Assembly: GCF_004324755.1 (NCBI RefSeq)
Contig: NZ_SDMQ01000003.1
Span: forward strand, 62,001-126,000
Direction: 5' to 3'
DNA: 64,000 nucleotides
Source: Propioniciclava sinopodophylli
Lineage (GTDB): Bacteria; Actinomycetota; Actinomycetes; Propionibacteriales; Propionibacteriaceae
Below are positions 30,874-61,548 of this stretch, piece by piece. The notes under the pieces are model-generated. The model was not told where the DNA came from, made no database searches, and saw only the letters and a program-made list of their open reading frames with translations. The position numbers were made by a program, and so were the translations under genes. The first letter of the stretch is position 1; every line of letters starts with the position of its first letter.

Positions 30874-30983
30874 CCGCCGAGGGCTTGGGTTCAGCCCGCC
30901 GAGGGCTTGGGTTCAGCCCGCCGAGGGCTTGGGTTCAGCCCGCCGAGGGCTTGGGTTCAGCCCGCCGAGGGCTTGGGCTTGGG
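30874..30983. repeat. Family-A 22-bp tandem repeat array A1
   Basis: Five units starting CCGCCGAGGGCTTGG at 30874, 30896, 30918, 30940 and 30962. The period is exactly 22 bp, and the first four units are identical. The last unit runs into the convergent GtrA gene, where it encodes the C-terminal PSAG residues; each copy contains the TCA that on the minus strand is the GtrA stop codon. The polar end CCGCCGAG faces the peptidase E terminator. Confidence 0.9.
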
Positions 30984-31430
30984 TTCGGAGAAGATCCAGA
31001 TCCGCTGGACGATGAAGTTGACCGTGGTCGCCAGGCCCTGCGCGATGACGAACCCGACGACCTGCGCCACGGCGACCCCCCACAGGTCGGCCAGGGGCGG
31101 GTACAGCAGCGCGAAGGTGCCCACCTGCAAAGCGAAGGTCAGCACGTACAGGGTCGCGACCGCGACCAGCTTGCGGCGGCTGCCGTCGGACTGGAAGGTC
31201 CAGCGCGAGTTGATCGCATAGGCGGTGAGCGTCCCGAACACCCAGGAGATCGCCTTGGCGACGGTGTGCGACAGCCCCAGAGCCATGCCGAGCACGAGCA
31301 GCCCGTAGTCCACGACGGCCGAGACGCCGCCCGTGACCACGAACCGGAACAGCTGCGTGCCGAGCGGCAGTTGAGCGCGGGCGTCCGGATCGGTGGACGG
31401 CTGCGGGGCGGGACGGATCACGCCCACCAT
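30957..31430 (-). CDS. GtrA-family membrane protein
   Basis: A 157-residue protein with four membrane helices (FRFVVTGGVSAVVDYGLLVLG, KAISWVFGTLTAYAINSRWTF, LYVLTFALQVGTFALLY, VVGFVIAQGLATTVNFIVQR), the GtrA/DPMS family pattern. It probably helps flip or supply polyprenyl-linked sugars for cell-envelope glycosylation. The basic KPKPSAG tail and stop codon are encoded by repeat array A1. Gene order next to purK/purE and birA resembles mycobacteria. Confidence 0.9.
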   Translation of the reverse strand: MVGVIRPAPQPSTDPDARAQLPLGTQLFRFVVTGGVSAVVDYGLLVLGMALGLSHTVAKAISWVFGTLTAYAINSRWTFQSDGSRRKLVAVATLYVLTFALQVGTFALLYPPLADLWGVAVAQVVGFVIAQGLATTVNFIVQRIWIFSEPKPKPSAG

Positions 31431-31462
31431 CGTCCCACAGGGGCGGGCGGCCGCTCGCCGGG

Positions 31463-31468
31463 TAGATT
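31463..31468 (+). promoter_or_regulatory. -10 of leaderless hydrolase gene
   Basis: TAGATT ends 6 nt before the ATG at 31475. Confidence 0.55.
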
Positions 31469-31474
31469 TCGCGC

Positions 31475-32128
31475 ATGCGCCTGCTCGCCCTCCTCCACGG
31501 CCTTGGCCAAACCCCGCAGTCCTGGCAGGACCAGGTCACCGCCATGCCCGCCGGATTCAAGGCCGTCGCGCCCTGGCTGAAGGGCACCCGCCCCGGACGC
31601 GCCGAAGAGTTCAGCGTCGAGGGCGCAGCCGACGACGTGCTCGCCCTGCTGAACCAACACGGCGCCGAGCAGATGTCGCTGGTGGGCGTGAGCCTGGGCG
31701 CGATGGTCGCCCTGGACGCCGCCACCCGGGCTCCCGACACCGTCTCGCACCTCGTGCTGGCGGCCGGGCAGGTGAACCCGCCGAAGTCAGTGATGCGGGC
31801 CCAGCGGCTCGTGTTCTCCCTCGTGCCCGCCAAGCGGTTGGCGGCCATGGGCGTGGAGAAGAAGCGTTTCCTGCAGGCGCTCGACCAGGCCGCGCGCATC
31901 GACTACCGCTCCCGGCTCGGCCAGGTGACCGCGAAAACACTCGTGCTCGTCGGCGGCAACGACAGGGCCAACCTGCAGGCCGCCCGCGACCTCGCCGCCG
32001 GCATCGCGGGGGCACGCCTGGAGATCATCCCCGGCGCGGGTCACCAGCCCAATGTCGACAGCCCCGAGGCCTTCAACGCGCTGGTCTGGCCGTTCCTGAC
32101 GGACGAGGACAAGCCCTCGGCGGACTGA
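31475..32128 (+). CDS. Alpha/beta hydrolase
   Basis: A 217-residue alpha/beta-hydrolase fold protein. It has the oxyanion start LLHGLGQTPQSW, nucleophile Ser in LVGVSLGAMVALDAA, the acid region LVLVGGNDRANL and catalytic His in IPGAGHQPNVDSPEAF. Substrate unknown. Its last codons (KPSAD-stop) are the first unit of repeat array A2, so its C-terminus appears to have been remade by the repeat. Confidence 0.88.
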   Translation: MRLLALLHGLGQTPQSWQDQVTAMPAGFKAVAPWLKGTRPGRAEEFSVEGAADDVLALLNQHGAEQMSLVGVSLGAMVALDAATRAPDTVSHLVLAAGQVNPPKSVMRAQRLVFSLVPAKRLAAMGVEKKRFLQALDQAARIDYRSRLGQVTAKTLVLVGGNDRANLQAARDLAAGIAGARLEIIPGAGHQPNVDSPEAFNALVWPFLTDEDKPSAD

Positions 32129-32190
32129 AGGCAAGCCTTCGGCGGACTGGAGGCAAGCCTTCGGCGGACTGGAGGCAAGCCCTCGGCGGG
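32110..32190. repeat. Family-A 22-bp tandem repeat array A2
   Basis: Four units with CAAGCCYTCGGCGG at 32110, 32132, 32154 and 32176, exactly 22 bp apart, in the reverse orientation to A1. Internal units can form a 6-bp hairpin with AA loop (GAAGGC / GCCTTC type). The array runs from inside the hydrolase coding end to 3 bp before the birA stop codon, filling the convergent gap. Confidence 0.9.
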
Positions 32191-32193
32191 GGG

Positions 32194-32967
32194 TCAGGCC
32201 GGGCGCAGGTGCTCCACGTCGCCTGCGACGAACGTGCGGGGGCCGGACGCCGTGCGCACGACCAAGCCGCCCCCGGCGTCGACCCCCACGGCCTCGCCGG
32301 TGACGTCGGAGTCGGCCAGGTGCACCACGACCTCACGCCCGATGGTGTCGCAGCGGCGCCGGTACTCGGCCACGACGGAGTCGCCGCGGTCCCACGCAGT
32401 GAACCAGCTCTCCAGCGACCGCAGCACCGCGGCCAGCAGCGGCGTGGCACCCACGTCCGAACCCTCCAGGCGCGTCGAGGTGGCCGTCGGGACGGGCAGC
32501 TGGTCGGCCCGCAGGCCCACGTTGATGCCGAAGCCGAGCACCGCGCGCGGGTCGTCCACCCCGCCGACCGACTCGCACAGGATGCCGCACAGCTTGCGTC
32601 CGGCTACCAGCACGTCGTTGGGCCACTTGAGGCGGGCGTCCAGCCCGGTTGCCGCGCGGACGCCGTCGGTGACGGCCATGCCGACCAGCAGCGGCAGCCA
32701 GCCCCACTCGGGCATCGGACGCCGCGGCGCGACGAGGACCGAGCAGGCGATGGAGGTGTCCTGCGGGGCCTCCCAGCGGCGGGCCAGCCGGCCGCGTCCG
32801 GTGCTCTGGTGGCCACTGGCCAGGACCAGCCCCGGCGCGGCCCCCTCGGCGGAGGCGCGGGTGAGGTCGGCGTTGGTGGAGCCCGTCGTCGGCACCGTGT
32901 CGAGGTGCGTCCACAGCCCCCCGAGGACGGCGAGTCGGAGGGCGTCGGCATCGAGGAAGGCGCTCAC
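32194..32967 (-). CDS. birA: Biotin--[acetyl-CoA-carboxylase] ligase
   Basis: Attaches biotin to the lysine of biotin carboxyl carrier domains, here most obviously AccA3 encoded 4.4 kb away. The 257 residues lack an N-terminal DNA-binding domain, so it is a group I ligase. Motifs are [26 protein letters not shown] (biotinyl-AMP loop), [18 protein letters not shown] and the small C-terminal SH3-like domain. GTG 32967 follows TAGGGT by 7 nt. It is divergent from accD. Confidence 0.95.
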
Positions 32968-32974
32968 GCCCGCC

Positions 32975-32980
32975 ACCCTA
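32975..32980 (-). promoter_or_regulatory. -10 of leaderless birA
   Basis: TAGGGT on the minus strand ends 7 nt before the birA GTG. Confidence 0.55.
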
Positions 32981-33050
32981 TCCAGCGCGTCCCACCGCAC
33001 CGGGCACGTGGGCTTGGGTGCGGACCGGGGGTAGGCATTATGGTCAGCGC

Positions 33051-34625
33051 ATGGAGATCGACATCCACACAACGAAGGGTAAGATCGCCGATCTCGGGGA
33101 ACGCATTCTCGCCGCTGAGAACGCTGCTTCCCCTGCTGCCGTTGAAAAGCAGCACGCCAAGGGCAAGCTCACGGCCCGCGAGCGCATCGCCGCGCTGCTG
33201 GACGAGGGCACCTTCGCGGAGTTCGACGAGTTCGCCCGCCACCGCTCAACGGCGTTCGGCATGCAGGCCAAGCGTCCCTACACCGACGGCGTCATCACCG
33301 GCGTCGGCGCCATCCACGGACGCCCCGTCTGCGTGTTCAGCCAGGACGTCGCCCTCTTCGGCGGCGCGCTCGGCCAGGTCTACGGCGAGAAGATCGTCAA
33401 GATCATCGACTTCGCCATCAAGACCGGCTGCCCGCTCATCGGCATCAACGAGGGCGGTGGCGCCCGTATCCAGGAGGGCGTCGTCTCGCTCGGCCTCTAC
33501 GGCGAGATCTTCCGCCGCAACACCCTCGCCTCCGGCGTGATCCCGCAGATCTCGCTGATCATGGGTGCCGCGGCCGGTGGCCACGTGTACTCCCCGGCCC
33601 TGACCGACTTCACGATCATGGTCGACCAGACCTCCCAGATGTTCATCACCGGCCCGGCCGTCATCAAGACCGTCACCGGCGAGGACGTCACCCTGGAGGA
33701 GCTGGGCGGCGGTCGCACCCACGCCAGCAAGTCGGGCAACGCCCACTACCTGGCAGCGGATGAGGCCGACGCGATCGAGTACGTCCGTGACCTGCTCAGC
33801 TACCTGCCGCAGAACAACCTCGAGGACCCGCCGGTCTACGACGAGGACGAGGCCGACCTCACGATCACCGACCACGACCGCGAGCTCGACACGCTCATTC
33901 CCGACAGCCCCAACCAGCCGTACGACATCCGCACGGTCATCAAGACGGTGCTCGACGACGACGAGTTCCTCGAGGTGCAGGAGCTCTACGCCGGCAACAT
34001 CGTCAACGGCTTCGGCCGCATCGAGGGCCGCGTCGTCGGCGTCGTCGCGAACCAGCCGATGGTCTTCGCCGGCTGCCTCGACATCAACGCCTCGGAGAAG
34101 GCGGCCCGCTTCATCCGCACGTGTGACGCGTTCAACATCCCCGTGCTGACGTTCGTGGACGTCCCCGGCTTCCTGCCCGGCGTCGACCAGGAGCACAACG
34201 GCATCATCCGCCGCGGCGCCAAGCTGATCTACGCCTACGCCGAGGCCACCGTGCCGCTGGTCACCGTCATCACCCGCAAGGCCTACGGCGGCGCCTACGA
34301 CGTCATGGGTTCCAAGCACCTGGGGGCCGACGTGAACCTGGCGTGGCCGACCGCCCAGATCGCCGTCATGGGCGCCGAGGGTGCCGTCGAGATCCTGTAC
34401 CGCAAGGAACTCGCCGAGGCCGAGGATCCCGTGAAGCGTCGCGCCGAGCTGGTCCAGGAGTACAACGACGAACTGGCCAACCCGTACGTGGCGGCCGAGC
34501 GCGGCTACATCGACCAGGTGATCTACCCGCACAGCACGCGCGAGACGATCATCCGGGTCATGCGCCTGCTCCGCACCAAGCGGGAGACGCTGCCCCCCAA
34601 GAAGCACGGGAACATCCCGCTGTGA
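33051..34625 (+). CDS. accD: Acyl-CoA carboxylase beta (carboxyltransferase) subunit
   Basis: A 524-residue biotin-dependent carboxyltransferase of the propionyl/acetyl-CoA type (AccD5/PccB-like). It has the two crotonase-fold halves with acyl-CoA and carboxybiotin oxyanion sites: [15 protein letters not shown] and [13 protein letters not shown] in the first half, and [14 protein letters not shown] and [18 protein letters not shown] in the second. It ends with KKHGNIPL. It works with AccA3 (37341) and the epsilon subunit encoded next. CATTAT lies 9 nt upstream. Codon use is strongly biased, as expected for high expression. Confidence 0.95.
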
Positions 34626-34861
34626 CCGGCGCCGAGCAGCTCACGGAGCAGGGTCCGCTGTTCACGGTGGAGTCCGGCAACCTGACCGACGAGGAGTTGG
34701 CGGCCCTGACGGCCGTCATCGCCGTCGTCCGTCGGGGGCGTGGGCGTCCGCACGCGCCGGTCAACTCGGCCATCGCGGGCGGCTGGCGCTCGCACTGGCA
34801 CCTCGTCCGGCACGCCGTGCTCCAGGGTCACGGCGCATGGCGGAGCACTGCCCGCCGCTGA
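34622..34861 (+). CDS. accE: Acyl-CoA carboxylase epsilon subunit
   Basis: A 79-residue epsilon subunit that bridges or activates the actinobacterial acyl-CoA carboxylase. The family pattern is visible: [23 protein letters not shown] followed by an SxWxxxxR-like end ([21 protein letters not shown]). The GTG overlaps the accD stop as GTGA, so it is translationally coupled. Confidence 0.88.
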
Positions 34862-34869
34862 ATCTCTGT

Positions 34870-34921
34870 CCTTCGCTTGGTGGCGGCCGCTAGGCTCGTT
34901 GCGTCCGTCATCAAGCGAAGG
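34870..34921 (+). promoter_or_regulatory. 10-bp perfect inverted repeat flanking the DUF937 promoter
   Basis: CCTTCGCTTG (34870-34879) and CAAGCGAAGG (34912-34921) are perfect inverted copies 32 bp apart. TAGGCT (34891-34896) between them is the probable -10. The right arm overlaps the Shine-Dalgarno GAAGGAG, so read-through transcripts from accDE would fold and hide it. Confidence 0.6.
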
Positions 34922-34931
34922 AGTTTCGGCA

Positions 34932-35675
34932 ATGGCCGCCGTAGACGACATCAAGTCCAGCCTCGACGTCTCCCAGATCGCCCAGTTCCTCGGGACCGAC
35001 GAGCGGACCGCCAACGAAGCGGTCGATCAGGCCCTGTCGCAGCTGGTGGGCTCCATGGGCACCACCGCGACGGACGCCCCCAGTGCAGTCGGACTCTCCC
35101 GCGCCGCGCTGAACGACCACCTCGACAGCCCCGCGTACGGCGACAGCATCGACATCAACAACGTCGACAGCGCCGACGGCGAGAAGATCGTCAACCACAT
35201 CTTCTCCGGCCAGGAGATCCAGTCCCTCAGCGGCGGCACCGATGGCAGCCTGCTGCGTCGCCTCCTCCCGATCCTGGCCCCGATCGTCATGGGCTACCTC
35301 GCCAGCAAGCTGCAGGAGCGCATGGGTGGCGGCCGCGCGCCGGCCCCCCAGTCCGGCGGCGGTGGCCTCGGTGACATCCTCGGCGATCTGCTCGGGGGCG
35401 GCGCGCCGCAGGGTGGTTCCACCGGCGGTGGCGGATTCGGCGACATCCTCGGCGACCTGCTCGGCGGCGGTTCCGCCCCGCAGCAGCAGGCCCCGGCCCC
35501 GCAGGCCCCCTCTGCCGACCGCGGCTTCCAGGTCCCGGGCGCCGGCGACGGCGGCCTCCGCATGGATCCGGGCACGTCGTCGTCCACGACCCCGCAGCAG
35601 CGCCAGGCGCCCGCGGGTGGCGGTGACCTGCTGGGTGGCCTGCTGCAGGACATCCTCCTCGGCGGTCGTCGCTGA
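34932..35675 (+). CDS. DUF937 domain protein
   Basis: A 247-residue protein. Residues 1-125 form the helical DUF937/YidB-like domain (AAVDDIKSSLDVSQIAQFLGTDERTA, VNHIFSGQEIQSLSGG, LAPIVMGYLASKL). The remainder is low complexity with three copies of GLGDILGDLLGG-like motifs in Gly/Pro/Gln-rich linkers. No signal peptide; function unknown. A clear ribosome binding site GAAGGAG precedes ATG 34932. Confidence 0.85.
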   Translation: MAAVDDIKSSLDVSQIAQFLGTDERTANEAVDQALSQLVGSMGTTATDAPSAVGLSRAALNDHLDSPAYGDSIDINNVDSADGEKIVNHIFSGQEIQSLSGGTDGSLLRRLLPILAPIVMGYLASKLQERMGGGRAPAPQSGGGGLGDILGDLLGGGAPQGGSTGGGGFGDILGDLLGGGSAPQQQAPAPQAPSADRGFQVPGAGDGGLRMDPGTSSSTTPQQRQAPAGGGDLLGGLLQDILLGGRR

Positions 35676-35677
35676 GC

Positions 35678-36292
35678 GTGCGACTGATCCTCGCCTCGGC
35701 GTCGCCGTCGCGCCTGCAGACCCTGCGGGCCGCCGGCGTCGACCCGGTCGTCCACGTCTCCGGCGTGGACGAGAGCCAGATCGAGGGGGCGGACGCCACT
35801 GCGGTGGCGTCCGCCCTCGCCCGTCTGAAGGCCGAGGCCGTGCTGGCCGAGGTCGGCACGGACGCCGACGTGGTCGTCGTCGGCTGCGACTCGATCCTGG
35901 AACTGGACGGCGAACAGTTCGGCAAGCCCCACACCGACGAGGTCGCGCGCGAGCGCTGGCACGCGATGCGCGGCCGCACAGGCGTGCTGGTCACCGGCCA
36001 CCACGTGGCCGTGGTCCGCGGCGGTCAGGTGCACCGCGACACCCGCGCGGCCACCACGGCGGTCACGTTCGCCGACGTGACGGACGCCGAGGTCGAGGCC
36101 TACATCGCCACCGGCGAGCCGCGCCATTGCGCCGGCGCGTTCACCATCGACGGCTTCGGCGGCGCGTTCGTCGAGCGCCTCGAGGGCGACCACCACAACG
36201 TCATCGGTCTCAGCCTGCCGCTGCTGCGCCGCATGCTCGCGGACGCCGGCGTGGAGTGGACGGCCCTGTGGCGCCTCTCGGTGCCCGCCTGA
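35678..36292 (+). CDS. maf: Maf-family nucleotide pyrophosphatase
   Basis: A house-cleaning pyrophosphatase hydrolysing non-canonical or methylated dNTPs/NTPs. The 204 residues begin LILASASPSRLQTLRAAGV (phosphate loop) and contain VVGCDSILELDG with the catalytic Asp and FTIDGFGGAFVERLEGDHHNVIGL. It starts with GTG 2 nt after the DUF937 stop. The linkage accD-accE-maf is conserved in actinobacteria. Confidence 0.94.
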   Translation: MRLILASASPSRLQTLRAAGVDPVVHVSGVDESQIEGADATAVASALARLKAEAVLAEVGTDADVVVVGCDSILELDGEQFGKPHTDEVARERWHAMRGRTGVLVTGHHVAVVRGGQVHRDTRAATTAVTFADVTDAEVEAYIATGEPRHCAGAFTIDGFGGAFVERLEGDHHNVIGLSLPLLRRMLADAGVEWTALWRLSVPA

Positions 36293-36316
36293 GCGCTCCC
36301 TTACACTGGGCGGGCC

Positions 36317-37216
36317 ATGACTGAGCTCGAACACGCGCACGCGCGCCATCGCCTCCCCGCCGCGATCCGGGCCATGCGGCCCCGCCAGTGGGTCAAGAAC
36401 ATCCTCGTGTTCGCCGCCCCCGTCGCGGCCGGCACGCTCCTGCAGCCGGCGATCCTCCTCACCACGCTGTGGGCGTTCGTGGCCTTCTGCCTGGTCAGCG
36501 CGTCCATCTACCTCATCAACGACGTCCGTGACGTCGAGGCCGACCGCGCCCACCCGAAGAAGCGGTTCCGCCCGATCGCGGCCGGCGAGCTCTCCCCCAC
36601 CACCGCCCTCGTGCTCGCGGGCGCCGCGCTCGTGGCGAGCCTCGGGCTGGGCTTCTGGATGGCGCCGCTGCTCGGCGTGACGCTGGCCACCTACTGGGTG
36701 CTGCAGGTGGGCTACTCGCTCTTCCTGAAGAACCAGCCGATCATCGACCTGGCCATGGTGGCGTCGGGGTTCATCCTGCGCGCCGTGGCCGGCGGCGTGG
36801 CGTCCGGCATCGAGCTGTCGCAGTGGTTCCTGCTGGTGGCCGCGTTCGGGTCGCTGTTCATGGTGGCCGGCAAACGCTACTCAGAGATCCGCGAGCTGGG
36901 CGCCGGGGCCGGGACGCGGGCGTCCCTGGCCCGCTACACCGACAGCTACCTCCGCTTCGCCTGGACGGTCGCCTGCACCGCCGTGATCATGTCGTACAGC
37001 CTGTGGGCCTTCGAGCAGTCCCAGGACGCCACGTGGCTCCGCCTGCCGTGGCACGTGATCTCCATCGCGCCGTTCACCCTGGCGCTGCTCCGGTACGCCT
37101 ACGTCATCGACTCCGGCTCGGCCGGCGAACCCGAGGACGTCGTGCTCTCCGACCGTGTCCTGCAGGCCCTCGGGCTGCTCTGGGTGGTCCCCGTCGCCAT
37201 CGCCGTCTTCTTCTGA
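36317..37216 (+). CDS. Decaprenyl-phosphate phosphoribosyltransferase (UbiA superfamily)
   Basis: A 299-residue polytopic membrane transferase resembling UbiA/DPPR synthase. It makes decaprenyl-phosphoryl-phosphoribose, a precursor of arabinose in cell-wall polysaccharide. First Asp-rich motif NDVRDVEADRAHPKKRFRPIA near residue 75, second near YSEIRELG; about nine hydrophobic helices. TACACT precedes the ATG by 9 nt. Specific substrate is inferred from similarity to the actinobacterial enzyme. Confidence 0.85.
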   Translation: MTELEHAHARHRLPAAIRAMRPRQWVKNILVFAAPVAAGTLLQPAILLTTLWAFVAFCLVSASIYLINDVRDVEADRAHPKKRFRPIAAGELSPTTALVLAGAALVASLGLGFWMAPLLGVTLATYWVLQVGYSLFLKNQPIIDLAMVASGFILRAVAGGVASGIELSQWFLLVAAFGSLFMVAGKRYSEIRELGAGAGTRASLARYTDSYLRFAWTVACTAVIMSYSLWAFEQSQDATWLRLPWHVISIAPFTLALLRYAYVIDSGSAGEPEDVVLSDRVLQALGLLWVVPVAIAVFF

Positions 37217-37283
37217 TCGGGGGCCCCGGCCGCCCGTGCTGCGTGAAGGACCGGTCGATTACGGGCCGGTACTGCTTTGGTTC

Positions 37284-37289
37284 TAGACT
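37284..37289 (+). promoter_or_regulatory. Candidate accA3 promoter -10
   Basis: TAGACT lies 51 bp before the GTG, implying a leader of about 45 nt with AGGAGG (37331-37336) as ribosome binding site. No good -35 was found. Confidence 0.4.
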
Positions 37290-37340
37290 CCGGAACGGAC
37301 ACGGCCCTGCGCCGAAGACCGGGACTTTCAAGGAGGAAAT

Positions 37341-46693: not shown

Positions 46694-48550
<1,857 letters not shown>

Positions 48551-48590: not shown

Positions 48591-48606
48591 TCGTCGTCCC
48601 ACCCTC

Positions 48607-48688
48607 CGCCGAGAGCCCCGGTGTTGTGCGCCGAGAGCCCCGGATTTGACTGCCCAGAGCCCCGGATTTGACTGCCCAGAGCCCCGAC
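48607..48688. repeat. Family-B 22-bp tandem repeat array B1
   Basis: Four units with core GCCGAGAGCCCCGG (two read GCCCAGAGCCCCG), 22 bp apart, the first starting CCGCCGAG. The 7-8 nt between cores vary (TGTTGTGC, ATTTGACT). The array lies between the protease terminator and the promoter of the epimerase gene. Confidence 0.88.
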
Positions 48689-48729
48689 CCCGTCCACCCA
48701 CAGCCCCTTGACCTGACAGAATCACCCCC

Positions 48730-49716
48730 ATGCGCATCCTGCTCACCGGGGGAACCGGAACGATCAGCCGAGCGGTTGTCCGCCGCATCCAGGCCGAAGG
48801 CCACGAGCTCACCGTCCTCAATCGCGGGCGGGGTGAGGCCCTCCCCGAGGGCGTCGAACATCTGGTGGGCGACGCCCGAGATGAAGCCGGCCTCGCCGCC
48901 CTGCTGGGAGACCGGGAGTTCGACTCGGTCGTGCAATTCCTGGCGTTCACTCCTGACGACGTCACCCGTGACCTGCGCGTGTTCGCCGGACGCGTCGGAC
49001 AGTACGTCCTGGTCAGCTCGTGCTCGACCTACCTCAAGCCGCTCCCCCACTTCCGCGTGACCGAGGACTCGCCCCAGGGCAACCCGTTCAGCGAGTACGC
49101 GCGCAACAAGATCGCCTGCGAGGAGGTGCTCCGGTCGTCCGACGCCGGCGTTCCTTGGACGATCGTCCGCCCCTCGCACACCTACGGCGAGCGCACGATC
49201 CCCACCAACTTCCACTTCGGCAACCCGTGGGCGGCGTGGCAGCGGCTCTTCGACGGCAAGCCGGTCATCGTGCACGGGGATGGCGAGTCCTTGTGGACCT
49301 TCACCTGGAACGAGGACTTCGCCGTCGGCCTCACCGGCCTCCTCGGCCATCCGGGCGCGTTGGGCCGACCGGTCCACATCACCTCGGACGAGTCGATCAC
49401 CTGGAACACGGCGTTCGACACCGTGGCCGCCACCCTCGGCGTCCCGATCGAGAAGGTGCACGTGGCCTCGGCGACATTGGGCGCGCTACGCGAGGACATC
49501 CAGGCCGCGCTGGTCGGCGACAAGGCGTCCACGATCATGTTCGACAACAGCCTCGTGAAGTCGCTCGTGCCTGCGTTCGACGCCCGGGTGACCTGGGCCG
49601 ACGGCGTGGCGCGCGCCTGGGAGTGGATGCAGGCGCACCCCGAGTCCATGCGTCCCGACCCCACCTACGACGCGTTCTGCGACGACGTCATTGCTCGGGT
49701 GCGTAGCTGGCGCTAG
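48730..49716 (+). CDS. NAD-dependent epimerase/dehydratase (extended SDR)
   Basis: A 328-residue Rossmann-fold protein with ILLTGGTGTISRAVVRR (GxxGxxS), a catalytic-type YARNK near residue 123 and VRPSHTYGER. It resembles sugar-nucleotide epimerase-like proteins. The true substrate is unknown. CAGAAT lies 7 nt before the ATG, so it may be leaderless. It converges on the SPFH gene across repeat array B2. Confidence 0.87.
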   Translation: MRILLTGGTGTISRAVVRRIQAEGHELTVLNRGRGEALPEGVEHLVGDARDEAGLAALLGDREFDSVVQFLAFTPDDVTRDLRVFAGRVGQYVLVSSCSTYLKPLPHFRVTEDSPQGNPFSEYARNKIACEEVLRSSDAGVPWTIVRPSHTYGERTIPTNFHFGNPWAAWQRLFDGKPVIVHGDGESLWTFTWNEDFAVGLTGLLGHPGALGRPVHITSDESITWNTAFDTVAATLGVPIEKVHVASATLGALREDIQAALVGDKASTIMFDNSLVKSLVPAFDARVTWADGVARAWEWMQAHPESMRPDPTYDAFCDDVIARVRSWR

Positions 49717-49722: not shown

Positions 49723-49780
49723 GGGGCTCTCGGCGCACAACACCGGGGCTCTCGGCGCACAACACCGGGGCTCTCGGCGG
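49723..49780. repeat. Family-B 22-bp tandem repeat array B2
   Basis: Three copies of GGGGCTCTCGGC at 49723, 49745 and 49767, 22 bp apart, with GCACAACACC-type spacers. The array ends CTCTCGGCGG 10 bp from the SPFH stop codon. Oriented opposite to B1, it fills the convergent gap. Confidence 0.88.
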
Positions 49781-53899: not shown

Positions 53900-53905
53900 C
53901 GGACA

Positions 53906-53942: not shown

Positions 53943-53949
53943 GGCCAGC

Positions 53950-54285
53950 ATGGCTGGACGCGTCGCACCCGCAGAGCCGTCGCTCATCACGAGCGCGCGG
54001 TTCGGGACGAGCCTGTCCACCGACCAGCGGGCCAAGCGGTACGTCATCACGATGCTGTTCCGCGTGGTCTGCTTCATCGCCGCCGTCGTCGCCCCCATCC
54101 CGTGGAACGTCGTGCTGCTCATCGCCGCCGCGCTGCTGCCGGGCATCGCCGTGCTGCTGGGCAACGCGCGCGACAACCGGCCGGAGGCACCGGTGACCTT
54201 CGACGAGGAGGACGCCGCCCCGCGGCTGGCGATCACGGCGGGCGAGGTCATCAAGGGAGACGTGGAACAGGAGGACGTGCGGTGA
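53950..54285 (+). CDS. DUF3099 membrane protein
   Basis: A 111-residue actinobacterial protein with PSLITSARFGTSLSTDQRAKRYVITMLFRVVCFIAAVV, two membrane helices (about 35-55 and 58-78) and an acidic tail. Function unknown; it often neighbours fatty-acid or respiratory genes. It overlaps the SURF1 start as GTGA. Confidence 0.87.
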   Translation: MAGRVAPAEPSLITSARFGTSLSTDQRAKRYVITMLFRVVCFIAAVVAPIPWNVVLLIAAALLPGIAVLLGNARDNRPEAPVTFDEEDAAPRLAITAGEVIKGDVEQEDVR

Positions 54286-55100: not shown

Positions 55101-55839
55101 CAAGGTCTTCGTCGTCACCGCCGCCTCGGGCGGCTTGGGCCGCGCGACCGCCGACCAGCTCGTGGCTGAGGGCGCGCGTGTCGTGCTCGTCGCGCGCCGC
55201 GAGCAGCCGCTGGCGGACGCCGTGGCCGCGCTGGGCGCCGACCGCGCGGTCACGCTCGCCGCCGACCTCAATGAGCCCGACACCGCCGCCCGTGCCGCCG
55301 CGCTGGCGGTCGAGACGTGGGGACGCCTCGACGGCGCCCTCGTCAGCGTGGGCGGGCCGCCCAAGGGCTCGGTGCTCGGCACGAGCGACGACACCTACCG
55401 CGCGGCCTTCGACACCGTCGTGGTCTCCGCGCTGCGCACCGCCCGCGCGGTCGTGGCCGCGGCGTCCGGCCCGGTCGCCCTGGGGTTCGTGCTGTCCACC
55501 TCGGTCAAGGAGCCCCTGGACACCATGGCGCTCTCGAACGTCACCCGGCCCGGCCTGGCGATGCTGATCAAGCAGCTCGCGAACGAGTTCGGCGACTCGG
55601 GCTCGCGCGTGGTCGGCATCATGCCGGGCACGATCCAGACCGACCGCATCAACTGGCTCGTCGACCAGTCCGACGACCGCGAGGCGGCGCTGGCCGGCAT
55701 GGGCGACTCCGCCCCGATGAAGCGCGTGGGCCAGCCGGTCGAGTTCGGCCGCGTGGCCGCGTTCCTGCTGTCGGACGCCGCGTCCTTCGTCACCGGCTGC
55801 ATCATCCCTGTCGACGGCGGGCGCCTGCGGGGCCTGTGA
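55081..55839 (+). CDS. SDR-family oxidoreductase lacking the YxxxK motif
   Basis: A 252-residue Rossmann protein with VFVVTAASGGLGRATADQL and VLSTSVKEPLDTMALSNVTRPGLAML. The usual active-site YxxxK reads SNVTRPG, as in a recognised SDR side branch, so its chemistry is uncertain. PVDGGRLRGL closes it. AGGAGG 6 nt upstream supports ATG 55081 inside the SURF1 end. Confidence 0.88.
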   Translation: MDLGLTDKVFVVTAASGGLGRATADQLVAEGARVVLVARREQPLADAVAALGADRAVTLAADLNEPDTAARAAALAVETWGRLDGALVSVGGPPKGSVLGTSDDTYRAAFDTVVVSALRTARAVVAAASGPVALGFVLSTSVKEPLDTMALSNVTRPGLAMLIKQLANEFGDSGSRVVGIMPGTIQTDRINWLVDQSDDREAALAGMGDSAPMKRVGQPVEFGRVAAFLLSDAASFVTGCIIPVDGGRLRGL

Positions 55840-56648
55840 CGCCGATGGGGTTGGACGCCGCACGCGGGCTGCTGGCCTGCCCGGTCTGCGCCGGCGCGCT
55901 GACGGTGGAGGGGCCGACGGCGTCCTGTCCGCAGGGGCACGCCTTCGACGTCGCCAGGCAGGGACACCTGAACCTGCTCGGCGCCGCCCAGCCCGCCAAT
56001 GCCGACACCGTCGCGATGGTGGAGGCGCGCTCGCGCGTGCTGGCGTCCGGGGCGTTCGACGCGGTGGACGCCGCGCTGGCCCGCCGGGCCGCCGGGTCAC
56101 GCACCGTGCTGGACGTCGGCGGCGGCACCGGCCACCACCTCGCCCGGCTGCTGGACGCCCTGCCCGGTTCCCGCGGGGTGTCGCTGGATGTGTCGGTGCC
56201 CGCAGCGCGCCGCGCTGCCAAGGCGCACGAACGTGCGGCGTCCGTCGTCGCGGACGCCTGGGGCACCCTGCCGCTGAGGGCCCGCCGGTTCGACCTCGTC
56301 ACCTGCCTGTTCGCGCCGCGCAACCTGGCCGAGTTCGCCCGTGTGCTGGGCGACGGCGGGCTGCTGCTGGTCGTCACCCCCGACCCCGAACACCTGGCGT
56401 CCGTCCGCGAGCGGTACGGGCTGCTCGGCATCGAGTCCGACAAGGACGACCGGCTGCTGCGCAGCGCGTCCGCCCAGTTCCAGGCCATCGGACGCCACCG
56501 CGTCCGCTCCTCCCTCGCCGCGGACGCCGACTTGGTGCGCGACCTGATCGCGATGGGCCCCAACGCGTTCCACGGCGTGCCCCAGGACGTGGAGGCCATC
56601 GAGACCCGCGTCGCGGTCAGCCTGTGGCTGTTCCGGCCGCTTCGCTGA
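55836..56648 (+). CDS. 23S rRNA guanine-N1-type methyltransferase (RlmA-like)
   Basis: A 270-residue SAM methyltransferase. An N-terminal zinc ribbon (LLACPVCAGALTVEG, ASCPQGHAFD) leads to GHLNLLG and the SAM loop TVLDVGGGTGHHLARLL, then FDLVTCLFAPRN. This layout matches RlmA/RlmAII enzymes, which methylate G745/748 of 23S rRNA. GTG 55836 overlaps the SDR stop as GTGA; ATG 55845 is the alternative. Confidence 0.88.
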   Translation: MTPMGLDAARGLLACPVCAGALTVEGPTASCPQGHAFDVARQGHLNLLGAAQPANADTVAMVEARSRVLASGAFDAVDAALARRAAGSRTVLDVGGGTGHHLARLLDALPGSRGVSLDVSVPAARRAAKAHERAASVVADAWGTLPLRARRFDLVTCLFAPRNLAEFARVLGDGGLLLVVTPDPEHLASVRERYGLLGIESDKDDRLLRSASAQFQAIGRHRVRSSLAADADLVRDLIAMGPNAFHGVPQDVEAIETRVAVSLWLFRPLR

Positions 56649-56653
56649 CCGGG

Positions 56654-56659
56654 TAGCTT
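56654..56659 (+). promoter_or_regulatory. -10 of leaderless cysK
   Basis: TAGCTT ends 6 nt before the ATG at 56666. Confidence 0.55.
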
Positions 56660-56665
56660 GCACCC

Positions 56666-57595
56666 ATGAACGTGTTCGAGAACGTGACCGACCTGATCGG
56701 CCGCACGCCGCTGGTCAAGATCAACAAGCTGCTGCCCGACTCGAAGGCCACCGTGCTGGCCAAGCTCGAGTTCTACAACCCCGCCAACTCGGTCAAGGAC
56801 CGCATCGGCGTCGCCATGGTGGACGCCGCCGAGGCGTCCGGCGAGCTGACCGCCGGCGGGACGATCGTCGAGGCGACCTCCGGCAACACCGGCATCGCGC
56901 TGGCGATGGTCGGCGCCGCCCGCGGCTACAAGGTGGTGCTGACGATGCCGGAGACCATGTCCAAGGAGCGCCGCGCGCTGCTGCGGGCCTTCGGCGCCGA
57001 GCTGATCCTCACCCCGGGCCCCGAGGGCATGCGCGGCGCGGTCGAGAAGGCCAACGCGATCGCCGACGAGCGCGGGGGCGTCCTGGTGCGCCAGTTCGAG
57101 AACCAGGCGAACGTCGACGTGCACCGCCGCACCACCGCCGAGGAGATCTGGAACGACACCGACGGCTCTGTCGACATCGTCGTGGCCGGCATCGGCACGG
57201 GCGGCACCATTTCGGGCGTCGGCCAGGTGCTCAAGGAGCGCAAGCCCGACGTGCGCCTGGTCGCCGTCGAGCCGGCCGAGTCCCCGATCCTGTCCGGCGG
57301 GCAGCCCGGGCCGCACAAGATCCAGGGCATCGGGGCGAACTTCATCCCGGCGATCCTGGACCGGTCGGTGATCGACGAGGTCCTCACCGTGACGTCCGAG
57401 GACGCGGTGGCGACGGCGCGCGACGCCGCCCGCACCGAGGGGCTGCTGGTCGGCATCTCGTCCGGCGCGGCGCTCAAGGCGGCCGGCGAGGTGGCCGCGC
57501 GCGAGGAGAACGCGGGCAAGACCATCGTCGTGGTCATCCCGAGCTTCGGCGAGCGGTACCTGTCGTCGGTCCTCTATGCGGACCTGATGGATTGA
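56666..57595 (+). CDS. cysK: Cysteine synthase A (O-acetylserine sulfhydrylase)
   Basis: PLP enzyme making cysteine from O-acetylserine and sulfide. The 309 residues include the PLP lysine in [14 protein letters not shown], the substrate loop [12 protein letters not shown] and the phosphate-binding [12 protein letters not shown], ending [10 protein letters not shown]. The usual partner gene cysE follows only as a broken fragment. Confidence 0.96.
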
Positions 57596-57649
57596 GCCTC
57601 GCCCGACGTGCTGGAGTAGCGCCATGAGTGGGCCCACACCCCCGCCTCG

Positions 57650-57766
57650 CGGGGCGGCTTCAAGCGGCACCCCACCATCGGCGACGGCGTCCTGTTGGGC
57701 GCGGGCGCCAAGGTGATCGGCCCCATCAGGGTCGGGGCGGACAGCCGGGTCGGCCCGGTCGCCTGA
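57650..57766 (+). pseudogene. cysE: cysE (serine acetyltransferase) 3' remnant
   Basis: Read in one frame after a TAG at 57617, about 38 codons give [20 protein letters not shown] then [16 protein letters not shown]-stop. This is the left-handed beta-helix end of CysE (KRHPT...GAGAKILGPI). The catalytic part, about 150 residues, is missing and the end stops before the usual AVV...PPGATVVGVPA. The position after cysK fits a decayed cysK-cysE operon. Confidence 0.75.
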
Positions 57767-57785
57767 CCCCTTTCGAAGGAGAATC

Positions 57786-58514
57786 GTGAAGCCGTTCCTG
57801 CACCTGTCGATCCGCGACCACGACCGGGCCGTCGCGGCCGAGTTCGACGCCATCGCGTCGTTCGGTGGGCTGAAGCCGGGACAGCTCGTCCAGCTCCGCG
57901 TTGAGCAGGCGCCCCTGCCCGTGATCCGGCCGGACGACTATTCGGGCCTCATCATCGGCGGCGGGCAGTTCAACACCTCCGACGAGATCAAGACCGACAA
58001 CCAGCGCCGCGTCGAGGGCGATCTGGCCAGGATCATCGACGTGGCGCTGGCCGAGCACGTCCCGCTGATCGGGCTGTGCTACGGCGTCGGCATCGTCACC
58101 CAGCACCTGGGCGGGCTGGTCGACCGCACCTACGGCGAGACCACCTCGGCGGTGGAGGTGACGCTGACCGAACACGGCCGCGTCGACCCGCTGTTCGAGG
58201 GCGTGCCGGACCGGTTCATGGCGTTCACCGGCCACAAGGAGGCCTGCTCGCGGACGCCGAACGACGCCGTGCTGCTGGCCACGGGGACGGCGTGCCCGGT
58301 GCAGTCGTTCCGCGTCGGCCAGCGCGCGTACGTGACGCAGTTCCACCCCGAGCTGGACGTCGAGCGCCTCGTCGAGCGGATGGTCATCTACCGCAACGCC
58401 GGCTACTTCGACCCCGACGAGTTCGACAACCTCGTCGAGGCCGCCCACGCCGCGGGCGTGGACGACTCCCCCGGCAAGATCCTTCGCAACTTCGTGGAAC
58501 TCTTCGCCCGCTGA
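57786..58514 (+). CDS. Class I glutamine amidotransferase
   Basis: A 242-residue amidotransferase-fold protein with catalytic C98 in LIGLCYGVG and H187/E189 in FHPELD. It stands alone without a synthetase partner, like GMP-synthase-type or gamma-glutamyl hydrolase-like amidotransferases in actinobacteria. GAAGGAG precedes GTG 57786. Substrate unknown. Confidence 0.87.
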   Translation: MKPFLHLSIRDHDRAVAAEFDAIASFGGLKPGQLVQLRVEQAPLPVIRPDDYSGLIIGGGQFNTSDEIKTDNQRRVEGDLARIIDVALAEHVPLIGLCYGVGIVTQHLGGLVDRTYGETTSAVEVTLTEHGRVDPLFEGVPDRFMAFTGHKEACSRTPNDAVLLATGTACPVQSFRVGQRAYVTQFHPELDVERLVERMVIYRNAGYFDPDEFDNLVEAAHAAGVDDSPGKILRNFVELFAR

Positions 58515-58522
58515 CGCCCCCT

Positions 58523-58625
58523 CCGCCGAGAGCCCCGGGTTTGGGTGCCGAGAGCCCCGGGTTTGGGCGCCGACAGCCCCGGGTTTGGGCGCCGAGAGCC
58601 CCGGGTTCGTGTGCCGACAGCCCCG
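58523..58625. repeat. Family-B 22-bp tandem repeat array B3
   Basis: Five cores (GCCGAGAGCCCCGGG type) starting at 58525, 58547, 58569, 58591 and 58613, exactly 22 bp apart, with GTTTGGGT-type spacers. It begins CCGCCGAG 8 bp after the amidotransferase stop and ends next to the diacylglycerol kinase stop, filling the convergent gap. Confidence 0.9.
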
Positions 58626-58626
58626 T

Positions 58627-59586
58627 TCAGGGCCCGGGCGTCCGCACCAGCAACGCTCCCTCCTGGACACGGATGCGCAGGTCGGCCACCTCGCCCACCA
58701 CGTCCCCGTCGAGGTGGAGGGGGGCGGGTTCGTCGGGCACGGCCCACAAGGTCCGCATGCGCGAGTAGCGCAGGGCGGCGGCCTCCCAGCGATGGTGCGT
58801 GATCCCGGCCCACGCGATGGAGGCCCACTGCGTCGGCGTCCGCAACGGCACCTCGAGGCAGTCGAGGTGACCGTCGTCCACCCGCGAGCCGGGGAACACG
58901 TCGATCCCGCCCGGGATGCTGCCCGAGTTGGCGACCAGGATCGTCCACGTGGAGAGGCGGCGGCCGGGTGCGCTGTCGATCGACAGGCGCATCCTGAGCG
59001 GCTTGCTCAGCAGGTGGCGCGACCCCATCGCGAGGTAGGCGAGCCAGCCGAGGCGTGACTTGGTGCCCCGATCGGTGGCCAGCACGGTCGCGGCGTCGTG
59101 CCCGAGCCCGGCCATGACGAGGAACACGTACTCGTCTGTCGGCGCGCCGCTCGTGCCGTCGGTGACGAGGCGCCAGCTCGCCCAGCCCACGTCGATCGGA
59201 CGCGGTGCGCCGTACAACGCGCGGTGGACCATCAGGCGCGGGTCGCGCGTGCGCAGGCCGAGGTTGAACGCGAACAGGTTGGCGGTGCCCAGCGGCAGGA
59301 CGCCGAGGTGTACGCCCGTGCTCGCCACCGCACGGGCCACCTCCCGGACCGTCCCGTCGCCACCGCCGACCACGAGGTGCCGGGCGCCCTGGGCCACGGC
59401 CTCGCGGGCCTGCGCCCAGCCGGTCTCCTCGGCCGTCGTCTCGAGGATGCGGGGCGCGGGCAGGCCGGCGTCCGCGCACGTCCGCTCGAGCGTGTGCCGC
59501 GCAACGGCGTAGCGCTTAGCGGTCGGGTTGAGCACCGCCCAGACCGGGACGCCGGCGTACGGGGCTCGTTCTGGAGCGGCACTCAC
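58627..59586 (-). CDS. Diacylglycerol kinase-family lipid kinase
   Basis: A 319-residue lipid kinase with VWAVLNPTAKR, the nucleotide loop VVGGGDGTVREVARAV, PLGTANLFAFNLGL and the C-terminal beta sandwich (IPGGIDVFPGSRVDDGHLD, LHLDGDVVG). It phosphorylates diacylglycerol, a sphingoid base or a related lipid. GTG 59586 is preferred because CACAAT ends 7 nt before it; ATG 59595 is the alternative. It is divergent from the chorismate mutase gene. Confidence 0.89.
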   Translation of the reverse strand: MSAAPERAPYAGVPVWAVLNPTAKRYAVARHTLERTCADAGLPAPRILETTAEETGWAQAREAVAQGARHLVVGGGDGTVREVARAVASTGVHLGVLPLGTANLFAFNLGLRTRDPRLMVHRALYGAPRPIDVGWASWRLVTDGTSGAPTDEYVFLVMAGLGHDAATVLATDRGTKSRLGWLAYLAMGSRHLLSKPLRMRLSIDSAPGRRLSTWTILVANSGSIPGGIDVFPGSRVDDGHLDCLEVPLRTPTQWASIAWAGITHHRWEAAALRYSRMRTLWAVPDEPAPLHLDGDVVGEVADLRIRVQEGALLVRTPGP

Positions 59587-59604
59587 GACCCCCATTGTGC
59601 TCGC

Positions 59605-59610
59605 TAGTGT
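59605..59610 (+). promoter_or_regulatory. -10 of leaderless chorismate mutase gene
   Basis: TAGTGT ends 6 nt before the ATG at 59617. Confidence 0.55.
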
Positions 59611-59616
59611 GAGCGC

Positions 59617-59913
59617 ATGAGCGAGATCCCGGCCGACTTGGCTGGCCTGCGTGCCAGCATCGACAACCTCGACCAGGCGCTCGTGTGCCTGCTGGCCGAA
59701 CGGTTCCGCATCACCCAGGAGGTTGGTGTCCTCAAGGCGACGCGCGGCCTGCCGCCCGCCGACCCCGAGCGCGAGAAGGCCCAGATCGCACGGCTGCGTG
59801 CCCTGGCGGACGCCGCGGGTCTCGATCCCGAGTTCGCGGAGAAGTTCCTGACCTTCATCGTCACCGAGGTCGTCCGCCACCACGAGCAGATCGCGCGCGA
59901 CCACCACGGCTGA
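59617..59913 (+). CDS. Chorismate mutase (AroQ-fold)
   Basis: Converts chorismate to prephenate for Phe/Tyr synthesis. The 98-residue all-helical protein has LRASIDNLDQALVCLLAERFRITQEVGVLKA with the catalytic Arg and Lys, DPEREKAQIARL and a C-terminal helix ending EVVRHHEQIA. It is a monofunctional short form. The stop codon abuts repeat array B4. Confidence 0.92.
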   Translation: MSEIPADLAGLRASIDNLDQALVCLLAERFRITQEVGVLKATRGLPPADPEREKAQIARLRALADAAGLDPEFAEKFLTFIVTEVVRHHEQIARDHHG

Positions 59914-59970
59914 GGGCTGTCGGCGGACAAGGCCGGGGCTCTCGGCGCACGGAACCGGGGCTCTCGGCGG
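59914..59970. repeat. Family-B 22-bp tandem repeat array B4
   Basis: Three units of GGGGCTCTCGGC (the first reads GGGCTGTCGGCGG) 22 bp apart, the first touching the chorismate mutase TGA, the last ending CTCTCGGCGG 24 bp before the next gene. Confidence 0.85.
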
Positions 59971-59981
59971 ATGGGGGGCAC

Positions 59982-59987
59982 TAGGGT
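59982..59987 (+). promoter_or_regulatory. -10 of leaderless App1-type gene
   Basis: TAGGGT ends 6 nt before the GTG at 59994, just after repeat array B4. Confidence 0.55.
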
Positions 59988-59993
59988 GCAAAC

Positions 59994-61160
59994 GTGCCCA
60001 TCGAACAAGACCTCATCGTCACGCTCCTGCAGGGGCACACCGACCGCAAGGAGGAGGCGCATGTTCTCGAGCTTCTCCGCGAAGCGTCCGCCCCCACCCT
60101 CGACAAGGTGCTGCGCGAGGTGGACGCCGCCCTCCTGTTCCGCAGCCTGGACGACCACCTGCTCGGCCCCGCCAACCACGCGGCCCTGCGTGACCTGCTG
60201 GTCGAGCGCATCGGCGAGCTGTCGATCGCCGCACAGGCCAACGTTGCCTACGGCTTGCAGGCCGGCATCACCGGCCGCGCCGACGAGGAGGCCATCTCGG
60301 CGATCTTCCACGCGCGCAAGGGCATCGAGCTCACCCAGCTCAAGAACCAGATGAACAGCCGCACCGACGCACACGACCTCGAGGGGCTCGTCTTCGGCGA
60401 CATCGACGACGAGGGCATCCGCGTCGAGATCCTCGACCACATCGCCGAGCAGGCCGCGGGCGTCCACACCGGCGAGTCCAAGGTGCTGTGCGACATTGAC
60501 GACACGGTGATCTGCGCGCTGCACGACGACCGCTACCCCAAAGGGACGATCTACCCCGGCATCCTTGCCCTGCTGGAGGCGCTCGACCGCGGGCACGACG
60601 ACGAGCCCTTCTCGACCGGCGACCTCACCTTCGTGACCGCTCGGCCCGGCGACGCCCTCGGGCTCATCGAGAACCACACCCGGAGCAGCCTGCGGCGGGC
60701 CGGCATCGCGACCCACTCCGTGCTGACCGGCACGCTGTCGGCGCTCGTCACCCACGACCTGATGGCCGGGCAGAAGATCGCCAACATCGACCACTACCGC
60801 CAGCTGTTCCCGGAGTATCGCAAGCTGTTCATCGGCGACTCGGGCCAAGGCGACGTCCGCGTCGGCGAACTGCTGCTGGAGCGCTTCGGCGACGTCGTCG
60901 ACATCGTGGTCATCCACGACGTGGTCGGCACGCCGGAGGACGAGCGCGCCGCGCACGCTGCGGCCGGCATCCACTTCGTCGACACCTACATCGGCGCCGC
61001 CCGGCTGATGCACGAGCGCGGGCTGATCGCCGAGGCAGGCCTCGAACGCGTGATCTCCGAGTCGTACGCCGCGCTGGACGCCATCGCGTGGCGCTCCCCC
61101 GAGCAGCGCGCCGCCATCCAGGCCCTGCTCGACCGGGACGCCGCACCGGCCACCGCCTGA
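59994..61160 (+). CDS. App1/DUF2183 HAD-type phosphatase domain protein
   Basis: A 388-residue protein. Residues 1-155 are helical and unassigned (EF-hand-like DIDDEGIRVEI near 136). Residues 160-350 match the App1 phosphatidate phosphatase-like HAD domain: CDIDDTVI with nucleophile D167 and D169, FVTARPGDALG, HDLMAGQKIANI and LFIGDSGQGDVRVG. The family acts on phosphatidate in yeast; the bacterial substrate is open. Confidence 0.85.
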   Translation: MPIEQDLIVTLLQGHTDRKEEAHVLELLREASAPTLDKVLREVDAALLFRSLDDHLLGPANHAALRDLLVERIGELSIAAQANVAYGLQAGITGRADEEAISAIFHARKGIELTQLKNQMNSRTDAHDLEGLVFGDIDDEGIRVEILDHIAEQAAGVHTGESKVLCDIDDTVICALHDDRYPKGTIYPGILALLEALDRGHDDEPFSTGDLTFVTARPGDALGLIENHTRSSLRRAGIATHSVLTGTLSALVTHDLMAGQKIANIDHYRQLFPEYRKLFIGDSGQGDVRVGELLLERFGDVVDIVVIHDVVGTPEDERAAHAAAGIHFVDTYIGAARLMHERGLIAEAGLERVISESYAALDAIAWRSPEQRAAIQALLDRDAAPATA

Positions 61161-61317
61161 ACCCACCGGGCGACACCATGGAACGCGAATCCCTGTCCGC
61201 ACGCACCGGCTTCACGGCACCCTGACCGATGCTGCCCGGCAAGCGTTCGGTGGGTGTGGTCGACGGACGCCGCACGTACGGCAACGCGATCATGCTGCGG
61301 GCGGTGCTGAGTTCGGT
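61161..61317. other. Non-coding gap before repeats; holds a guaA relic
   Basis: The first about 65 bp hold nothing I can recognise. The rest contains the guaA-like fragment listed separately. No promoter or RNA gene was seen. Confidence 0.6.
61229..61306 (+). pseudogene. guaA: guaA (GMP synthase) C-terminal remnant
   Basis: In frame from 61229 the codons give MLPGKRSVGVVDGRRTYGNA then IMLRAV, which resembles the GuaA dimerisation domain (LP-KSVGV-GD-RTY----LRAV). The downstream MTADW...NRVVYD...PPATIEWE end is absent: repeat array A3 begins 11 bp later. GuaB3 lies 2 kb away, and guaA usually clusters with it. Confidence 0.6.
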
Positions 61318-61405
61318 CCGCCGAGGGCTTGGGTTCAGTCCGCCGAGGGCTTGGGTTCAGTCCGCCGAGGGCTTGGGTTCAGTCCGCCGAGGGCTTGGGT
61401 TCGGG
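61318..61405. repeat. Family-A 22-bp tandem repeat array A3
   Basis: Four units CCGCCGAGGGCTTGG plus GTTCAGT, at 61318, 61340, 61362 and 61384, same orientation and nearly same sequence as A1. It runs without a gap into the inverted family-B array B5. Confidence 0.92.
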
Positions 61406-61548
61406 GCTCTTGGCACAAAACACCGGGGCTCTCGGCGCACAAGACCGGGGCTCTCGGCACAAAACACCGGGGCTCTCGACACAGAACACCGGGGCTCTCG
61501 GCACAGAAGGCCGGGGCTCTCGGCGCAGAAGACCGGGGCTCTCGGCGG
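61403..61548. repeat. Family-B 22-bp tandem repeat array B5
   Basis: Seven copies of GGGGCTCTCGGC (variants CTTGGC, CTCGAC) at 61403, 61425, 61447, 61469, 61491, 61513 and 61535, exactly 22 bp apart. Spacers are ACAAAACACC, GCACAAGACC and GCAGAAGACC. The array ends CTCTCGGCGG directly against the PBP stop codon. With A3 it forms a 231-bp block with CCGCCGAG at both outer ends. Confidence 0.92.

Follow-up and report, generated by a model that had tools for sequence, protein, structure and literature searches.

What are the 22-bp tandem repeats that fill gene gaps in a 64,000-nucleotide stretch of the Propioniciclava sinopodophylli genome (contig NZ_SDMQ01000003.1, positions 62,001 to 126,000; hereafter the window), and does any gene go with them? 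An earlier note on this DNA described eight arrays of two related families, with an exact 22-bp period and intergenic placement, and stated that no protein or known RNA explains them. Tandem Repeats Finder (TRF) calls eight 22-bp tandem arrays in the window, which match those of the note (A1 to A3 and B1 to B5), and the families, the period and the placement were confirmed. No Rfam family matched in the window, in agreement with the statement on RNA. The statement on proteins has to be withdrawn, since a candidate cognate gene was identified. The reading that we favour takes the dispersed arrays as non-autonomous copies of the candidate recognition sites of its product. They are probably the non-autonomous part of a repeat system, the other part being a chromosomal gene for a two-domain protein.

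The note had named a check beforehand, the search for further copies of the cores in the rest of the genome, and these copies are abundant. The genome carrying the window (G000) comprises 43 contigs totalling 3.07 Mb. With up to one mismatch allowed, the family A core occurs in it 233 times and the family B core 257 times; the reversed patterns match 4 and 10 times, respectively. Within the window, where up to two mismatches were allowed, there are 23 B and 22 A cores, compared with shuffle means of 5.2 and 2.3, respectively. We then used a set of 198 genomes of one bacterial family, G000 included, for comparison. A two-unit pattern with the 22-bp period matches 281 times in G000, 41 in G001, 34 in G008 (whose assembly is 72% complete), 5 in G007, and 3 in G002. 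The remaining genomes have 0-2 matches (G012 has one), and the reversed controls give 0-1 per strand. The single exact-pattern match in public genomes (L005) was discarded: it is a 21-bp repeat in a contig of an unrelated metagenome-assembled genome, apparently within a gene.

Arrays were read in 629,670 bp of G000, i.e., the window and 39 other stretches (L056-L094). Because these stretches were chosen around core hits, the 94 arrays of 2-9 units found in them (46 A, 48 B) are not a genome-wide sample. The family A unit is GCCGAGGGCTTGGGTTCAGTCC-like and the family B unit is GCCGASAGCCCCGGnnTTnTGC-like; a rarer family C has GCCGAGGACTC-like units. The arrays start sharply, a cytosine preceding the first core in 95% of A (44 arrays) and 97% of B (45 arrays), and those of family B also stop sharply, at core base 12. 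Between arrays, identity is 0.88 (A) and 0.94 (B) in the core and 0.58 (A) and 0.51 (B) in the linker. The mean linker identity within arrays is 0.84 (A) and 0.73 (B). Hence, the core is kept across the genome and the linkers are more specific to each array. Since linkers of the same array are alike, and are thus not unique spacers, we rejected CRISPR as an explanation. One three-unit family A array is letter-identical in G000 (L061:6324-6379) and G001 (L102:5475-5530), next to genes with 99-100% identity in part of the locus, which points to recent exchange or strong constraint.

The most regular trait of the arrays is their polarity. Among the 35 pairs of neighbouring arrays less than 1.5 kb apart in G000, 31 face each other, plus then minus (binomial p 4e-15 against an expectation of one quarter). 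The four others are in the reverse arrangement (2), both plus (1), or both minus (1). This count kept the arrays lying in called genes or at the ends of stretches, and one of the facing pairs, L090, has an array inside a called gene. The same family is found on both sides in 25 of the 31 facing pairs. By our own count, facing also prevails in the loci of G001, G007, and G008, with 10 of 12 pairs of this kind. The polarity is confined to short distances: the pairs separated by 1.5-6 kb are +-, -+, ++, and -- in 2, 3, 4, and 3 cases. About half of the facing pairs (16/31) are 5-40 bp apart inside one gap and the other 15 enclose stretches of 168 to 1,313 bp, which mostly hold one or two genes. 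A family B pair at L065:5815-6248 encloses a tRNA-Gln gene (6045-6126).

Which gene could go with these arrays? Arrays at L066 and at L077 enclose two paralogous genes that match no Pfam model at 0.001, and a third paralogue lies at L072 between arrays of family C. Each gene has one array family: A at L066, B at L077, and C at L072, where one C array abuts the stop codon of the gene. The corresponding gap in G001 and G012 lacks the array-gene-array block of L077, and the flanks can be aligned on both sides; the L072 gene is missing in G001. The L066 gene and its arrays are common to G000, G001, G008, and G007, and G012 has neither of them. The 198 genomes were searched with a profile built from the three proteins. 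Its best eight matches score 264-547 bits, followed by 248, 225, and then at most 201 bits. The eight members of the subclade that we defined at 264 bits or more are distributed in G000 (3), G008 (2), G007 (2), and G001 (1), which are exactly the genomes with at least five matches to the tandem pattern.

At six of these eight genes (L066, L077, L072, and those of G001, G008 C88, and G007 C210) there are arrays of the expected family on each visible side. At G007 C132, one flank has two to three C-like units and the opposite flank has one C-like core, and at G008 C33 the nearest family B-like match is ~1 kb away. The loci G007 C210 and G008 C33 are cut by a contig end. The phylogenetic tree joins seven subclade proteins at 100/100, with four A-linked and two C-linked proteins in supported groups and one B-linked protein apart. 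Of the 94 A and B arrays, no more than 4 are next to the genes of L066 and L077; the others are found at unrelated genes.

The association extends beyond this subclade. A homologue is present in 120 of the 198 genomes (E <=1e-10), and TRF on the first 30 homologue loci, 26 of them outside the subclade, revealed arrays of 19-22 bp adjoining the gene in other genera, with other sequences. We then used a strict test, which asks for a 9-mer that recurs with a spacing of 19-23 bp on one side and is present in inverted form on the other, on 40 further loci picked by hand down the homologue listing, one or two per genome, which is not a random sample. It was passed at 18 of the 40, compared with 2 of 91 control genes in the same loci (p 2e-9). 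Tandem arrays were found on at least one side at 17/40 loci versus 7/91 controls (p 7e-6) and on both sides at 8/40 versus 0/91. The corresponding numbers in the first set of 26 are 15 for the strict test, 14 for at least one side, and 5 for both sides. Periods of 19 and 20 dominate at the homologue loci. In G006, of the same genus, the 20-bp arrays that accompany the homologue of this genome are seen again in 3 of the 10 stretches of 20 kb that were sampled, and their core GACGAGTCGCCCGCG has 20 matches with at most one mismatch in these ten stretches alone (reversed, 0). Our first G006 sample took in L042, which overlaps the cognate-gene locus, and two overlapping stretches, and the core counts were repeated without them. 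One 20-bp array of G006 (L239:71-1137) has ~55 units, far more than any array seen in G000.

Upstream of the homologues, the DnaA-box-like motif TTRTCCACAG occurs within 350 bp of 34 of 69 genes and none of 138 controls; allowing one mismatch, the counts are 57/69 and 3/138. They concern the loci L169-L238, where 69 of 70 have enough upstream DNA. The motif perhaps indicates replication-linked control. No relatives were found in phages, nor in viral contigs searched with one peptide pattern, and one distant match lies on a plasmid.

Proteins of this kind are often labelled DUF559 or AbiEi, and we know of no function assigned to the gene family. Among 28 aligned members, the invariant residues include S133, E136, D168, E179, D181, G182, K185, and W220. 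The PADLOC AbiEi model matches 26 of the 28 at E <=0.1 (best 5.5e-21), and in P0001 the match covers residues 17-107 (E 4.4e-6). Pfam AbiEi_4 matches 5/28 (best 8e-7) and AbiEi_1 matches one, weakly; a sequence search of PDB gave no match. We therefore predict an AbiEi-like DNA-binding domain in the N-terminal half. The C-terminal half, where D, ExDG, and K are invariant, reads as a putative nuclease of the PD-(D/E)XK type. In published work, AbiEi and Rv2827c recognise 23-bp inverted repeats in the promoters of their own genes, one promoter having four consecutive copies (PMC7319586); a unit of 19-22 bp is compatible with this. Nucleoid protein binding was among the roles proposed in the note, and we count a possible protein-binding role as right.

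If arrays are sites of such a protein, what happened to the chromosome around them? The window provides a first case. Array B3 (58524..58625, plus strand, five B units) faces B4 (59914..59971 by TRF, minus strand, three units), and the segment between them (58627..59913), with a diacylglycerol-kinase-like gene (-) and a chorismate mutase gene (+), is inverted relative to G001, with a breakpoint at each array. Of the 36 mapped window genes from 26745 to 63432, the remaining 34 keep their order and strand; in this interval G000 and G001 each carry a few genes without counterpart in the other. The kinase gene is co-directional with the downstream gene in 9 of the 10 relatives having the latter; in the tenth (G005), the kinase gene was not seen in the flank that was fetched. 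In all, 3 of 14 gene-enclosing pairs compared with G001 have an inverted segment, setting aside L077, whose gene is missing in G001, and L090. The two other cases are a 75-bp open reading frame (ORF) at L094 and an alanine-racemase-like gene at L067. Both hold relative to G012 too, which is about as near to G000 as G001 is by protein identity; L067 has further gene differences alongside. The L094 ORF (5462-5536, 24 codons) is 100% conserved in G001 and G012, lies inverted between facing arrays in G000, and gave no tRNA call with ARAGORN.

Synteny breaks are also associated with arrays. The genes on either side of a gap are not adjacent in G001 for 19 of 48 array gaps versus 14 of 209 other gaps (p 6e-8), or versus 9 of 84 when only other gaps of at least 50 bp are considered (p 3e-4). 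These counts cover the 348 of 639 genes that were mapped to fetched stretches of G001, and 16 gene pairs with partners on different stretches were dropped (3 array gaps, 13 others). By our reading of the map, most compared array sites of G000 have no array at the matching place in G001, and some pairs are kept in place across species (L093 with L098 and L110; L066 with L101, L108, and L112). Two genes are missing from array gaps of G000: an aldehyde dehydrogenase gene, present there in G001, G012, and G007, and a DEAD helicase gene, present there in G001 and G012. Both have homologues elsewhere in G000, but with no arrays beside them, so the data do not show a relocation by way of arrays. The first of these genes lies between the L076 flanks in the three relatives (L147:3886-5409, L159:5997-7586). 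The matching L076 gap in G000 is a facing array pair, and a 90%-identical gene is found on another contig without arrays.

Two other array pairs of the window enclose genes whose strand did not change. A1 (30873..30977, +, five units of CCGCCGAGGGCTTGGGTTCAGC) faces A2 (32105..32189, -, four family A units) across a segment (30957..32128) with a GtrA-like gene (-) and an alpha/beta hydrolase gene (+), in identical order and strand in G001. B1 (48606..48707, or 48606-48686 by TRF; +, four to five B units) faces B2 (49723..49779, -, three B units) across an NAD-dependent epimerase-like gene (48730..49716, +), whose strand is unchanged in G001. The last pair is formed head-on by A3 (61311..61402, +, four A units) and B5 (61402..61546, -, seven B units), with a 5 bp gap. 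The 3' end of a subtilase gene carries 135-bp tandem repeats (47905-48547); this gene is without a match in the syntenic G001 stretch. As described in the note, five of the seven array sites of the window are convergent gaps. Its claim that nearly every convergent gap wider than 50 bp holds an array or an inverted repeat stands for the arrays in five of seven such gaps by our gene calls (made with our own script); the other two (607-692 and 9889-10044) lack an array and were not inspected for inverted repeats.

These observations could be accounted for by a process of breakage and copying. The protein would bind array units, and since these are about two helical turns apart, they would lie on one face of the DNA. 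The nuclease might cut at or near arrays, with repair copying from another array, and such break and copying repair would spread arrays into gene gaps. When breaks occur at two arrays, the enclosed segment could be kept, flipped, replaced, gained, or lost. A facing pair would result if both chromosome ends of a break received a copy, which would explain the polarity of the arrays. Such a model fits the facing rule, the missing target duplication, and the variable content between arrays. A broader proposition has, in our view, about even chances. It posits an undescribed class of elements across the bacterial family, made of an AbiEi-like/REase-like protein and its private 19-22-bp arrays, where repeat sequence and period are particular to each protein lineage and, in some lineages, the chromosome has been filled with non-autonomous facing pairs that flip and exchange the enclosed genes by break-repair copying. 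Our literature searches, in open-access papers, retrieved no account of such genes with flanking arrays nor of these arrays.

Several observations weigh against this interpretation. DNA binding, cutting, and movement by the protein are what we infer, and the nuclease assignment stems from the invariant residues and one weak match to REase_MTES_1575 (7.5e-3, 1/28). There are also stray matches, to CMD in 2/28 members (best 2.3e-6) and to IS4_FS_Nterm in 1/28 (0.0095), for which we have no explanation. The four array-bearing genomes are closely related, which weakens the co-occurrence count, and G002 has its three tandem matches (one B-like) without a subclade gene. At L072, the other C array lies beyond the neighbouring ATPase gene, which is resident in G001. 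No target-site duplication (lengths 3, 4, 5, 6, 8, and 9) was found in 32 facing pairs. Outside the subclade, 22 of the 40 homologue loci fail the strict test, the gene-adjacent arrays of G031 are not dispersed in 200 kb, and the facing rule fails in G006, where close dispersed arrays (L242, L244) share orientation. A distant paralogue in G000, L238 (G000:C33:132636-141388), has on each side an inverted repeat, around CACCTCGAAAGTGAATCT, instead of tandem arrays.

Could the arrays serve the host instead? They could be protein-binding boundaries or loop anchors, with the gene as a resident regulator and not a mobiliser, and the facing polarity would then be needed for pairing of arrays up to ~1.3 kb apart. 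The restriction of facing to short distances, the conservation of cores together with the drift of linkers between arrays, and the pairs kept in place in several species all suit such a domesticated function. It remains rather unlikely in our judgement, given that most compared array sites of G000 are empty in G001, that the array-gene-array block of L077 is missing from relatives, and that synteny breaks are enriched at arrays. A narrower regulatory account, in which the arrays beside the gene are operators, as for AbiEi, and the distant ones result from slippage and chance, could draw on the promoter repeats bound by AbiEi and Rv2827c (PMC7319586). It seems improbable, because arrays are found downstream of the gene too and because those flanking the L066 and L077 genes are so few, the rest being at unrelated genes, 26 of them in convergent gaps.

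Transposon ends of the Tn7 or Mu type would offer inward-facing 22-bp transposase sites, several per end and inverted at the two ends, and L077 does resemble an inserted unit. Yet, the facing pairs lack target-site duplications, resident housekeeping genes are enclosed in place, and none of 19 scanned proteins, mostly from enclosed genes, matches a transposase model (the genome was not searched for DDE families), so that we give this account very little credence. We regard one-way terminators or insulators, the latter also proposed in the note, as just as improbable. Three family B arrays fold better than shuffles on the sense strand (z -2.3, -2.6, and -4.4) and many arrays closely follow a stop codon, whereas the one family A array that was folded shows no excess (z -0.2). 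Moreover, the orientation of arrays relative to genes is unbiased, with 26 sense and 21 antisense in tandem gaps, and 13 arrays lie in divergent gaps (these counts leave out 5 of the 94 arrays, inside called genes, and 3 at stretch ends). This rejects, or at least weakens, any rule tying arrays to 3' untranslated regions or terminators. Least probable of all are neutral variable number tandem repeats (VNTRs) arising by slippage in tolerant gaps. Units are indeed more alike within arrays than between them, and the slippage-driven variation suggested in the note may still set copy number. It would not give one core at hundreds of places with sharp borders, a facing rule, and a cognate gene.

If our reading of the arrays is true, the system could give rise to small inversions and to the turnover of genes among closely related species. 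The function of the gene should be directly testable, as a matching DNA target lies beside many of the genes and such a locus names its own candidate binding site.

How does this system compare with known ones? The mycobacterial interspersed repetitive units (MIRU)/VNTR elements, to which the note had likened the arrays, are also intergenic tandem repeats. Their units are longer, and we know of no facing pairs or cognate gene among them. Given the sharp borders, the conserved core, the facing-pair rule, the genome-wide copies, and the candidate cognate gene found here, the analogy does not hold. The ends of Tn7 and Mu carry multiple 22-bp sites facing inward at both ends, and the present arrays of 22-bp units face inward likewise; the differences are the lack of target-site duplication and of a transposase among the genes scanned, and the flanking of resident genes. 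Synthesis of the DRT10 or telomerase-like type makes tandem-repeat DNA of a fixed unit (PMC12632851). Such repeat addition was rejected or at least weakened, as RVT_1 has no match in G000, a model that matches in 3 of 14 control genomes.

The AbiE systems share with the present one the AbiEi-like N-terminal half, and AbiEi proteins read 23-bp repeats (PMC7319586). They differ from it by the extra half found here, predicted to be nuclease-like, and by the arrays, which here lie to either side of the gene and at many other places in the genome. No AbiEii nucleotidyltransferase was found among six scanned neighbours of the three G000 genes (MazG, enolase, ArsR-type helix-turn-helix, H+-PPase, AAA_21 ATPase, and MerR). 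AAA_21 (PF13304) has a putative AbiEii toxin in its title, but the ATPase gene is also present in G001 without the partner.

The closest parallel is REPIN/RAYT. These systems are described as short repeats dispersed between genes, commonly in inverted pairs, with a resident gene that the same repeats flank and several repeat classes per genome near their genes (PMC3116915). We likewise find dispersed extragenic repeats, often as inverted pairs, and for each class a resident gene with its repeats on both sides. In contrast to REPIN/RAYT, the units are 19-22-bp direct tandem repeats with no long palindrome seen in the consensus, the genes match AbiEi models and no Y1 (HUH) transposase model, and the enclosed segments, of 0.2-1.3 kb, can be resident genes. 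As we find neither the palindromic unit nor the Y1 transposase, we rate the array system as a new kind that works like REPIN/RAYT without being one. If confirmed, it would represent a second, unrelated origin, beside REPIN/RAYT, for repeat elements with a resident gene.

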